This document shows, in pieces, positions 38,857 through 59,404 of a stretch of DNA of 64,000 nt. The notes beneath the pieces were generated by a model, which was not told the origin of the DNA, ran no database searches, and saw only the letters and a program-made list of their open reading frames with translations. Each line of letters opens with the position of its first letter. Positions within the stretch are counted from its first letter, which is position 1. The stretch spans positions 1 through 64,000 of the forward strand of contig NZ_JAHAMK010000002.1 of NCBI RefSeq assembly GCF_018383585.1, given 5' to 3'. The translations under genes and the position numbers were made by a program. The stretch comes from Microvirga sp. 3-52. GTDB lineage: Bacteria; Pseudomonadota; Alphaproteobacteria; Rhizobiales; Beijerinckiaceae.

Positions 38857-40185
38857 TTATTTATGCATTGTGAGGCGGGCGATCACGTCCTCGAGCGCGA
38901 GATGTTCACGCTCTCCAGTGGAGCGGTGCTTCAGCTCCACCTTGCCCTCGGCAAGGCCCTTCGGCCCGATCAGAACCTGCCACGGAACTCCGATGAGATC
39001 CGCGGTCGCGAACTTGCCTCCCGGACGCTCGTCCCGATCATCGTAAAGCACGTCGCGCCCAGCAGCGCCCAACTCGCGGTAAAGACGCTCCGAGGCGGCA
39101 TCGGTCGCCGCGTCACCGGGTTTCAAATTCAGGATCGCCACGTCGAAGGGAGCAACTGCTTCCGGCCAGATGATGCCATTCTCGTCATGGCTGGCCTCGA
39201 TGATTGCGGCAATCAGGCGGCTCGGGCCGATGCCGTAGGAGCCCATATGGACCGGCCTCTCCTGCCCGTCGGGACCCATGACCTTCGCACCCATTGGCTC
39301 GGAATACTTGGTGCCGAAATAGAAGATGTGGCCGACCTCGATGCCGCGGGCAGACATCTTCTTGTCCTCCGAAACCGCGTGGAAAGCCGCAGCGTCGTGC
39401 ATTTCGGATGTCGCCGCATAGAGCGACGTCCACTTGTCGACAGTGCTCTGGAGACCGGGAATATCATCAAAATTCGTGTCGGCCGATGGAATCTCGAAGT
39501 TCAGGTAATCCGCATGGCAGAAAACCTCGCTCTCGCCCGTCGAGGCCAGGATGATGAATTCGTGGCTCAGATTTCCTCCGATGGGGCCAGTGTCGGCGCG
39601 CATCGGGATCGCCTTCAACCCCATCCTGGCGAAGGTCCGAAGGTATGCCACGAACATCTTGTTATAAGAATGCACGGCGCCCGCCTGATCCAGATCGAAG
39701 GAATAGGCATCCTTCATCAGGAACTCGCGCGAGCGCATGACACCGAAGCGCGGACGCACCTCGTCGCGGAACTTCCACTGGATGTGATACAGGTTCAGCG
39801 GCAGATCCTTGTAGGAGCGCACATAGCCCCGGAAGATCTCCGTGACCATTTCCTCGTTGGTCGGGCCGAAGAGCATATCGCGCTCGTGCCGGTCCTGGAT
39901 GCGCAACATCTCCTTGCCGTAGGCATCGTACCGGCCCGATTCCCGCCACAGGTCGGCCGATTGGATCGTCGGCATGAGAAGCTCGATGGCGCCGGAGCGG
40001 TTCTGCTCCTCGCGGACGATGGCATTGACCTTGTTCAGCACCTTCAACCCAAGCGGCAGCCAGGCATAAATTCCAGCGGCTTCCTGGCGGATCATGCCGG
40101 CGCGCAACATCAGACGGTGAGAGACGATCTCCGCCTCTTTCGGCGTCTCACGGAGAATGGGGAGGAAGTAGCGGCTCAAACGCAT
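38857..40185 (-). CDS. proS: Prolyl-tRNA synthetase, short alphaproteobacterial type
   Basis: A class II synthetase charging tRNA-Pro. From ATG 40185 it has 442 residues, starting [20 protein letters not shown]. The length shows that it lacks the ~180-residue editing insertion of E. coli ProRS, as is usual in alphaproteobacteria, so Ala-tRNA-Pro clearance would need a separate factor. Motif 2 region [20 protein letters not shown] and motif 3 region [20 protein letters not shown] are visible, followed by the anticodon-binding domain (about 350-442). It heads the proS-lolC-lolD operon. Confidence 0.96.
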
Positions 40186-40217
40186 GGGACGCCTTTGGGT
40201 CTCGATCAGAACAGGGA

Positions 40218-40245
40218 AAGGTAGCGACTCGCTTCCAGCACACAA
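40218..40245 (-). promoter_or_regulatory. Possible promoter for proS-lolCD
   Basis: Minus strand TTGTGT and TACCTT with 16-bp spacing, 33 bp upstream of the proS start codon. Position is sensible; hexamers are only partly consensus. Confidence 0.35.
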
Positions 40246-40363
40246 CACAGGCCCCAGGCAAAAGACAAGCTGTCATCGACCGGTCGGGCCTGCGGCGAGA
40301 CGGATTAGACCAAAGATCAATACAAGAAATGCCAAAAAATGCATCAGAAAGTGCCTACAAAAG

Positions 40364-40392
40364 GTGACACCGCTGGGCAAGGTGACTATAAA
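40364..40392 (+). promoter_or_regulatory. Sigma-70 promoter for the small RNA
   Basis: GTGACA (40364-40369) and TATAAA (40387-40392) on the plus strand, separated by exactly 17 bp. This is the best-looking promoter in the window and points away from proS into the 40.4-kb intergenic transcript. Confidence 0.7.
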
Positions 40393-40398
40393 CAAAAC

Positions 40399-40554
40399 CC
40401 TAACGTCTTAGACCTTCAAAGGTCAGAGGCTACGGTCCGAGTTTCGGGAGGAACAAGGTCCCCAAGCGCCCTGAGGCGCTGGTCTTAGAAAGCCAGGGAT
40501 CAAAAATTGCCAAAAGGCAGTTTAGGCAAGGCGAAAGCCTTGCTTTTCTTTTTT
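40399..40554 (+). ncRNA. Putative ~155-nt intergenic small RNA, family unknown
   Basis: A transcription unit without coding sequence lies between proS and the DUF1467 gene, running opposite to both. It has a GTGACA-17-TATAAA promoter, a start near 40399-40401 and a strong terminator at 40526-40554. The body is rich in small hairpins: GACCT-TCAA-AGGTC (40411-40424), an apical AGCGCC-CTGA-GGCGCT stem enclosed by GGTCCC/GGGATC, and TGCC-AAAA-GGCA (40508-40519). No start codon with a ribosome-binding site is present. The length is like 6S RNA and the enclosed stem is compatible with it, but I cannot confirm the family; a regulatory sRNA is the alternative. Confidence 0.65.
40526..40554 (+). terminator. 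Terminator of the small RNA
   Basis: GCAAGGC-GAAA-GCCTTGC followed by TTTTCTTTTTT on the plus strand: a 7-bp stem, tetraloop and long U-tract. It sits 22 bp beyond the DUF1467 stop codon and faces that gene. Confidence 0.92.
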
Positions 40555-40576: not shown

Positions 40577-40936
40577 TCAAAGGCCGGCCAGAGGAAAAAC
40601 CGCCGCGACCACTATGAGAACGACGGACGCGACAAACGTCGTCCAGATCGCCTTTTCTCGCAGTGCCGGAAGCGCCGGGGCTCCGGGCTCGCTTCCTTGG
40701 ACGACATCTCCGCTTTCCACTTGGCTGCGGACGCCGAAGGGGAGGACGGCAAAGAGCAGGATCCACCAGATCACGAAATAAAGAGCCAAGCCTCCGCTCA
40801 CCCGCAGGCCAAAAGCATTGACGGCGACAGTGATGGCGGTGCCTGACACGGCCGCGACGACGGCAATCGTGGACCAGAGCGATCCCGCAAGGGTTTTTAC
40901 AAAGCTTATCAACAGCTTGTCCTCAGGCTTGCTCAA
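40577..40936 (-). CDS. DUF1467 family membrane protein
   Basis: A small membrane protein of unknown function. The family core is clear: GGLALYFVIWWILLFAVLPF, then GVRSQVESGDVVQGSEPGAP, then a last transmembrane segment (about 95-117). The 119-residue reading uses a TTG at 40936 that overlaps the mce stop by 14 nt and includes an additional N-terminal hydrophobic segment (about 10-40). Most family members begin just before the ALYF helix, so a downstream GTG at the GLRVSGG segment is an alternative start. It ends the operon that runs from nuoA through birA, rnj and mce. Confidence 0.8.
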   Translation of the reverse strand: MSKPEDKLLISFVKTLAGSLWSTIAVVAAVSGTAITVAVNAFGLRVSGGLALYFVIWWILLFAVLPFGVRSQVESGDVVQGSEPGAPALPALREKAIWTTFVASVVLIVVAAVFPLAGL

Positions 40937-59327: not shown

Positions 59328-59404
59328 TGGCGCGGGCGACGGGGCTCGAACCCGCGACCTCCGGCGTGACAGGCCGGCACTCTAACCGACTGAGCTACGC
59401 CCGC
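59328..59404 (-). tRNA. tRNA-Asp (GTC anticodon)
   Basis: A 77-nt cloverleaf on the minus strand with a 7-bp acceptor stem GCGGGCG/CGCCCGC, D-arm with AGTCGGTTAGA, anticodon stem CCGGC/GCCGG around loop CTGTCAC (anticodon GTC, Asp), T-arm GCGGG-TTCGAGC-CCCGT, and an encoded CCA end. A consensus promoter lies 30 bp upstream. Confidence 0.96.

Follow-up and report, generated by a model that had tools for sequence, protein, structure and literature searches.

What RNA would be made from the short interval at 40364-40554, and what would it do? The interval lies in a window of 64,000 nucleotides from Microvirga sp. 3-52 (the whole stretch of DNA that was analysed), where a sequence-only reading had proposed a self-contained non-coding transcription unit, complete with promoter and terminator. 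The features that we recognise in it are listed here; published RNAs are described throughout from extracts of the papers cited.

40364..40392, plus strand: predicted sigma-70-type promoter GTGACA-17-TATAAA, from the sequence; TGACA kept by 47 of the 48 aligned genus sequences
40399..40554, plus strand: predicted transcript of ~156 nt, its 5′ end placed from the -10 box
40405..40430, plus strand: P1, a variable 5′ hairpin (helices 1 and 2, both-sided changes in the genus alignment)
40433..40454, plus strand: invariant core CGGTCCGAGTTTCGGGAGGAAC, a complement of the linker in αR8 (RF00519), with the co-varying base at 40443
40457..40501, plus strand: P3 domain with closing helix GGTCCC/GGGATC (helix 4, both-sided changes in 6 of 6 pairs in the genus)
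40465..40480, plus strand: apical stem AGCGCC/GGCGCT, from the sequence; helix 5 of the genus alignment
40507..40520, plus strand: P4, the small hairpin TTGCC/GGCAG (helix 7 of the genus alignment)
40524..40554, plus strand: intrinsic terminator, from a terminator scan; 7 of 9 pairs invariant across 48 sequences

The elements named in that reading are all present: GTGACA (40364-40369) and TATAAA (40387-40392) stand either side of a 17-nt spacer, the AGCGCC/GGCGCT stem occupies 40465-40480, and the terminator hairpin GCAAGGC-GAAA-GCCTTGC (40526-40543) runs into TTTTCTTTTTT, the long U-run described. A simple scan lists the terminator and passes over the promoter, since its rule calls for T as the sixth base of the second hexamer. 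TGAC is kept in all 48 rows of the Microvirga alignment, and RTGAC occurs at most 135 nt upstream of the core in all 96 loci that have both core and terminator, some of them, for a motif of 5 nt, by chance. Terminator-like sites are neither rarer nor commoner in the window than chance would have it (two found, 2.1 expected). The fold of the region has z = -4.28 on the plus strand, with none of 200 shuffles equally good, and z = -2.99 on the minus strand. By eye, an A-rich stretch with GCATCA and TGCC precedes the -35 box (upstream of 40364) and recurs in Microvirga and partly in Methylobacterium; it is a possible UP element or regulator site, and a SoxS-like site has been predicted for smrC9 of Sinorhizobium meliloti (PMC2780559). 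A coding gene was rejected: among open reading frames of at least 40 codons, the plus-strand frame that overlaps the body in part is 49 codons long; it starts before the predicted transcript does, where the species differ by indels.

A DNA search of 101 genomes recovered the RNA once in each of the 48 Microvirga genomes; three of the other 53 gave short matches only. When a structure derived from the window sequence was set against the alignment of the 48 sequences, 94.6% of cells were paired and both-sided changes were seen in 15 of 42 pairs, against 7.3 in shuffles; no shuffle out of 500 came as high on even one of five measures, subject to the caveats of that control. The covariation supports the helices within Microvirga. 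With promoter, core and terminator conserved in 48 of 48 genomes, the predicted transcription unit is real, more than a chance arrangement, and the proposal of an independent non-coding unit is borne out as far as sequence can carry it.

Its family was less evident. The sequence-only reading had found the RNA compatible with 6S RNA, and what favours this is its length, the one feature in which the two are alike, together with the enclosed GC stem. Against it, the covariance model for 6S (RF00013) has no match in the window, and the same genome has a clear, separate 6S gene at G000:C89:127321-127478 (87.5 bits). We therefore rejected 6S and give it virtually no credence. The only Rfam match over cut-off in the window is a tRNA gene at 59331-59404 on the minus strand. 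Still less credible is a CsrB/C-like RNA titrating CsrA through its GGA motifs: there is a weak CsrC match (16.8 bits, cut-off 61), but CsrA (PF02599) is found in none of the 101 order genomes searched, own genome included, which removes the usual reading of such motifs, and CsrA titration was rejected. A sponge of ar14/NfeR1 was likewise dropped, no ar14 over cut-off being found in this genome (best 14.9 bits, cut-off 58.8).

Both neighbouring genes are on the minus strand, so that the RNA runs opposite to them, as had been claimed.

38857..40248, minus strand: proS, the divergent neighbour by which the αr9 locus is recognised (Pfam PF00587 and PF03129; synteny)
40577..40936, minus strand: gene for a DUF1467 protein, convergent neighbour (Pfam PF07330)

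The product of 38857..40248 is a predicted class II tRNA synthetase by Pfam, taken as prolyl by its locus. In S. meliloti the sRNA sra32 lies between SMc01933 and proS (PMC2245857; also PMC2573895); it has been seen on Northern blots and has a promoter gaTGAC-n17-CTA.AT (PMC2245857). The same RNA, as SmrC9, is 149 nt long and went undetected in nodules (PMC2780559); its abundance peaks in log phase, and it co-precipitates with Hfq (PMC2848018); as SmelC289 it is described with five hairpins, a middle one of which is completely conserved (PMC3927594). The Microvirga gene, too, sits next to proS, and its promoter sequence and predicted length (~156 nt) fit the sigma-70 promoter and ~150-nt transcript of this family, αr9. 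It has the conserved core, with one substitution that is matched in αR8 (see below), the variable 5′ hairpin and the terminator hairpin.

The Rfam search that the sequence-only reading had proposed gave a divided answer: nothing for 6S, and for αr9 a match of the ar9 model (RF02343) at 23.3 bits, under the gathering cut-off of 45. A covariance model, R1, was built from the 48 genus sequences; it is biased towards the genus, so that its silence elsewhere means little. Among 149 genomes of the family R1 has matches in 56, six of which, the own genome included, are from the genus; among 199 of the order it has matches in 44, again with the own genome in the count. Of 20 relatives found with R1 and scanned with the Rfam model, five pass the ar9 cut-off (best 72.5), and all five adjoin proS. 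That only five do so indicates that the RF02343 model covers just part of the family. Among 51 family and order loci, proS lies upstream in opposite orientation in 46, DUF1467 lies downstream without proS in three more, and neither is seen within the stretch examined in two. The RNA which the earlier reading could not place in a family is, by synteny and this chain of models, the Microvirga orthologue of the proS-linked αr9 sRNA (SmrC9/sra32); with the window below the cut-off, it is an orthologue in that sense and no formal Rfam member.

What is conserved over the order is the core, roughly CGGTCYRAGTCTYGGGAGGAA, and the terminator; there is little else of αr9. In 65 order-level sequences the consensus structure is weak, comprising the terminator and two further pairs only; the P3 closing helix is absent from it, and a P3-like long-range helix appears in 29 of the 65 single folds. 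The four-pair stem within the core is incomplete in 21 of the 65, which led us to reject the core as a purely structural stem: it is the sequence of the core, not the stem, that is conserved. A terminator filter kept 96 of 131 loci; the 35 dropped comprise 14 family or order loci and 21 from a pattern scan, many of the latter from unrelated taxa and hence chance matches. One locus (L151) is titled 'MAG: Microvirga sp.', yet its core is AGUCU, the form seen outside Microvirga, and the title is probably wrong.

A predicted partner of the core comes from another sRNA family. The invariant core of αr9, CGGUCCGAGUUUCGGGAGGAAC, is antisense to the linker of the RF00519 (suhB/αR8/MmgR) sRNAs. The genome of strain 3-52 holds five of these (G000 contigs C67, C32, C89, C14 and C35), with the linker GUUUCCUCCCUAAACUUCGGGCCG in four and GUUUCCUCCCUAAACUUUCGGGUCG in the fifth. 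The core is nearly the reverse complement of GUUUCCUCCCUAAACUUCGGGCCG, a linker that carries the anti-Shine-Dalgarno 10-mer UUUCCUCCCU, and so complementarity to both 10-mer and linker is found within one genome. The predicted energy of the window core with the αR8 linker is -34.9 kcal/mol; among 25,590 tiles of the window only those antisense to the RNA itself reach this value, the next best being -31.5 kcal/mol. For four of the five αR8 copies none of 300 shuffles of the core reaches the observed energy; for the fifth 2.7% do. Two points count against the pairing: the GGGAGGA of the core is largely within a predicted hairpin (mean unpaired 0.13), and part of the paired αR8 stretch lies in the αR8 terminator stem.

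The two families also occur together. RF00519 is found in all 48 genus genomes (1-11 matches each, the linker nearly uniform in the copies read), in 89 of 101 order genomes, and in 57 of 58 and 40 of 40 genomes with an ar9 match (one of the 40 listed twice). The equation of RF00519 with αR8/MmgR rests on PMC2873474, PMC7143759 and the 10-mer UUUCCUCCCU, which is common to αR8 (PMC12559287). S. meliloti SmelC689, listed with RF00519 (PMC2873474), is MmgR, or αr8 (PMC7143759); since the same S. meliloti table also lists SmelC411 and SmelC412, the AbcR RNAs (AbcR1/2), with RF00519 at lower numbers (PMC2873474), the label 'αR8' rests on the 10-mer.

If the two RNAs pair, changes on one side should be met on the other. 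Most linkers outside Microvirga read UAGACUU, with AGUCU in the core; the Microvirga forms are UAAACUU and AGUUU (scored so in 67 of the 70 locus rows from Microvirga and in 70 of the 72 from elsewhere, the remaining five being variants that the pattern left unread). The site pair is C-G in 88 genomes of 47 groups, U-A in 47 genomes of the single genus Microvirga and G-C in two genomes of one genus; all 137 scored genomes (49 groups) are concordant at the site in at least one αR8 copy. Groups are genera by label, except that three Pseudovibrio species were entered apart. The number of αR8 copies read in a genome ranged from one to five, with a single copy in 92 of 127. The core was unread in 5 of 113 ar9 loci and the linker in 4 of 174 αR8 loci, with G145, G109 and G148 read later; the site was unscored in 5 of 142 locus rows. 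Genomes unscored for lack of core, linker or αR8 include G002, G049, G113, G153, G176, G210, G336 and G390, and G391 was dropped as having the same coordinates as G078. None of nine named loci that were checked shares its ar9 neighbourhood with another locus in the set.

The G-C state belongs to genus g60, where GGUGU in the core faces UACACUU in the linker, in the single copy read of G145 and in two of three copies of G106, both αr9 loci lying beside proS. The third αR8 copy of G106 (L468, G106:C1:607841-607917) keeps the old linker UAGACUU and may escape the sponge. The firm part of the co-variation is the two clean double changes, in Microvirga and in g60, natural compensatory changes in support of the predicted pairing, at a pair otherwise constant in the scored genomes; they are two events, one per lineage, not 49. 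Beside the site, genus g63 has an uncompensated U-to-C: the αr9 cores of L061 and L066 (G148 and G109) read AGGUCC for AGGUCU, with no matching αR8 change in the copies read, and pairing may be relaxed in this lineage.

Agreement extends past the single site. In Aurantimonas the next part matches too (core GCGGUCUAGUCU, linker AGACUAGACCGC), and its own pair has -24.1 kcal/mol, compared with -17.9 and -16.9 when the consensus partner is placed on either side. Over 49 groups the extension energy is -21.84 for cognate partners versus -19.98 (sd 0.29) for partners swapped between groups, and -22.28 versus -21.27 once seven derived groups are removed (42 left), each reached in 0 of 20,000 permutations; for whole core plus linker in 35 genera the figures are 0 of 20,000 and, without Microvirga, 6 of 20,000, all from permutations that treat groups as independent though they are related, the tree not being modelled. 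At most six genomes per group entered the whole-length test and five the extension test. Of 11 tabulated lineages, the own pair is better than both consensus swaps in four (g60, Aurantimonas, g129 and g123), better than one in four (Microvirga, Fulvimarina by 0.2, Pseudovibrio and g29) and better than neither in three (Jiella, Pseudovibrio2 and g9). Microvirga αr9 has -18.9 kcal/mol with the consensus αR8 and -18.2 with its own; that it pairs as well with the consensus linker is partly because G-U pairs count.

As a control for register, the linker was slid along the core: 81.3% of cells are paired at the predicted register and at most 51.4% at other slides, although slide +1 exceeds the true register in both-sided changes (9 versus 7) and in further pair types (12 versus 8). 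When linkers were re-dealt among 42 groups, 1 of 5000 deals reached the observed pairing and 7 of 5000 the observed number of both-sided changes. One representative stood for each of the 42 groups, seven of them added by hand with the αR8 copy chosen and the rest entered with their first αR8 copy. Three rows are out of register, G070 and G107 by indels and G132 by a second GGAGG, an effect that lengthens the segment of such sequences in the extension-energy test as well.

The pairing of αr9 with αR8 is thus strongly supported by sequence, and this bears on the possibility that αr9 is an ordinary trans-acting sRNA that pairs with mRNAs, its likeness to the αR8 complement being incidental. Both fliM and a cytochrome c oxidase gene have been predicted as targets of sra32 (PMC2245857). 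The compensatory changes in trans speak against this, as does the number of exact 12-mer core complements in the 48 genus genomes beyond the RNA's own locus: 54, versus 86 for a reversed control (101 occurrences minus one per matching genome, 47, as the own locus; counted irrespective of orthology). We consider it quite improbable.

Taken together, the matching G/A-rich element, the binding of the S. meliloti orthologue to Hfq and a co-varying match that goes beyond the 10-mer lead us to read αr9 as an antagonist of αR8. That the RNA at this locus is the Microvirga αr9, and that αr9 is an antisense antagonist ('sponge') of the αR8/MmgR (RF00519, suhB) sRNAs, we hold with good, if not full, confidence; across the Hyphomicrobiales αr9 is very likely the αR8 sponge. 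The bolder form, in which αr9 is a dedicated αR8/MmgR sponge order-wide and both RNAs have co-evolved base for base in trans, is one towards which we lean. GGGAGGA of the core would meet UCCUCCC of αR8, presumably on Hfq; the duplex would run on through AGUUU (AGUCU elsewhere) into CGGUCC and cover the αR8 seed for ribosome-binding sites. One or both RNAs would probably be degraded, and the targets of αR8 released; those known are genes for carbon storage and transport. Such a mechanism is published for CrfA of Caulobacter, a proven sponge of the αR8 sRNAs SisA-D (PMC12559287). MmgR limits PHB storage in S. meliloti (PMC7143759), which makes carbon storage and uptake the likely outputs.

Both the direction, αr9 lowering αR8 and not the reverse, and the physiology are what we infer. 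The pairing evidence is symmetric, and the roles could be exchanged: αr9 would be the effector, its other hairpins acting on mRNAs or a protein, and αR8 would pair with the core to switch αr9 off or cleave it. In keeping with this, SisA also lowers full-length CrfA in Caulobacter (PMC12559287), and the covarying P3 domain, unneeded for a sponge, is kept in the genus. Against it, order-wide conservation of αr9 scarcely goes beyond core and terminator. Moreover, αR8 genes frequently come in several copies (1-11 matches in each genome of the genus), and the αR8 RNAs of Caulobacter act on mRNA targets themselves (PMC12559287). We judge the exchange of roles unlikely, and retain αr9 as the antagonist.

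The αr9 family is itself known: its orthologues have been in print since 2007 as SmrC9/sra32 (PMC2245857, PMC2780559), in these extracts with predicted targets only. What is new here is that its core is the antisense of the αR8 linker, with co-variation in trans. Among the matches listed from the open-licence literature, including that on CCUCCUCCC, the extracts hold no report of αr9-αR8 pairing; those on SmrC9, sra32 and SmelC289 describe no sponge role; and those on MmgR describe transcriptional control, an RNA antagonist being found only in Caulobacter. The pairing would link two known sRNAs and predict phenotypes in carbon storage and transporters. If true, it provides natural compensatory-mutation evidence for an sRNA-sRNA pair and, with CrfA, would establish the control of αR8 by sponges as a general layer of carbon regulation in Alphaproteobacteria. 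A further suggestion is that co-evolution between unlinked sRNAs of bacteria can be visible, so that partners might be found from genomes alone.

Of the systems already described, the nearest is the αr9 family (SmrC9 = sra32 = SmelC289 of S. meliloti, ReC25 of Rhizobium etli; RF02343), which the Microvirga RNA resembles in its place beside proS, its predicted sigma-70 promoter with TGAC, its predicted length of ~150 nt, its conserved middle hairpin and its intrinsic terminator. It differs from the known members in its sub-threshold Rfam score (23.3 against 45) and in the C-to-U change of the core base at 40443, matched by its αR8 partners. The described range, 29 relatives in Rhizobiaceae, Brucellaceae and Phyllobacteriaceae with prolyl-tRNA synthetase adjacent in all but one (PMC3927594), is here widened to Microvirga and many further genera. 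In proposed mechanism the closest likeness is to CrfA, the sponge of SisA-D in Caulobacter crescentus, in which a G/A-rich stem-loop pairs with the αR8 10-mer UUUCCUCCCU, as is predicted for αr9; 10 minutes after its induction CrfA has brought SisA down about five-fold, with a much smaller effect in cells without hfq, and it frees a target of SisA (all PMC12559287). CrfA is induced by carbon starvation, whereas SmrC9 reaches its highest level in log phase (PMC2848018). QrrX of Vibrio, a sponge of the multi-copy Qrr sRNAs (PMC12559287), is by its description a further parallel: the RNAs and the lineage are different, and there, too, one RNA antagonises a family of sibling sRNAs.
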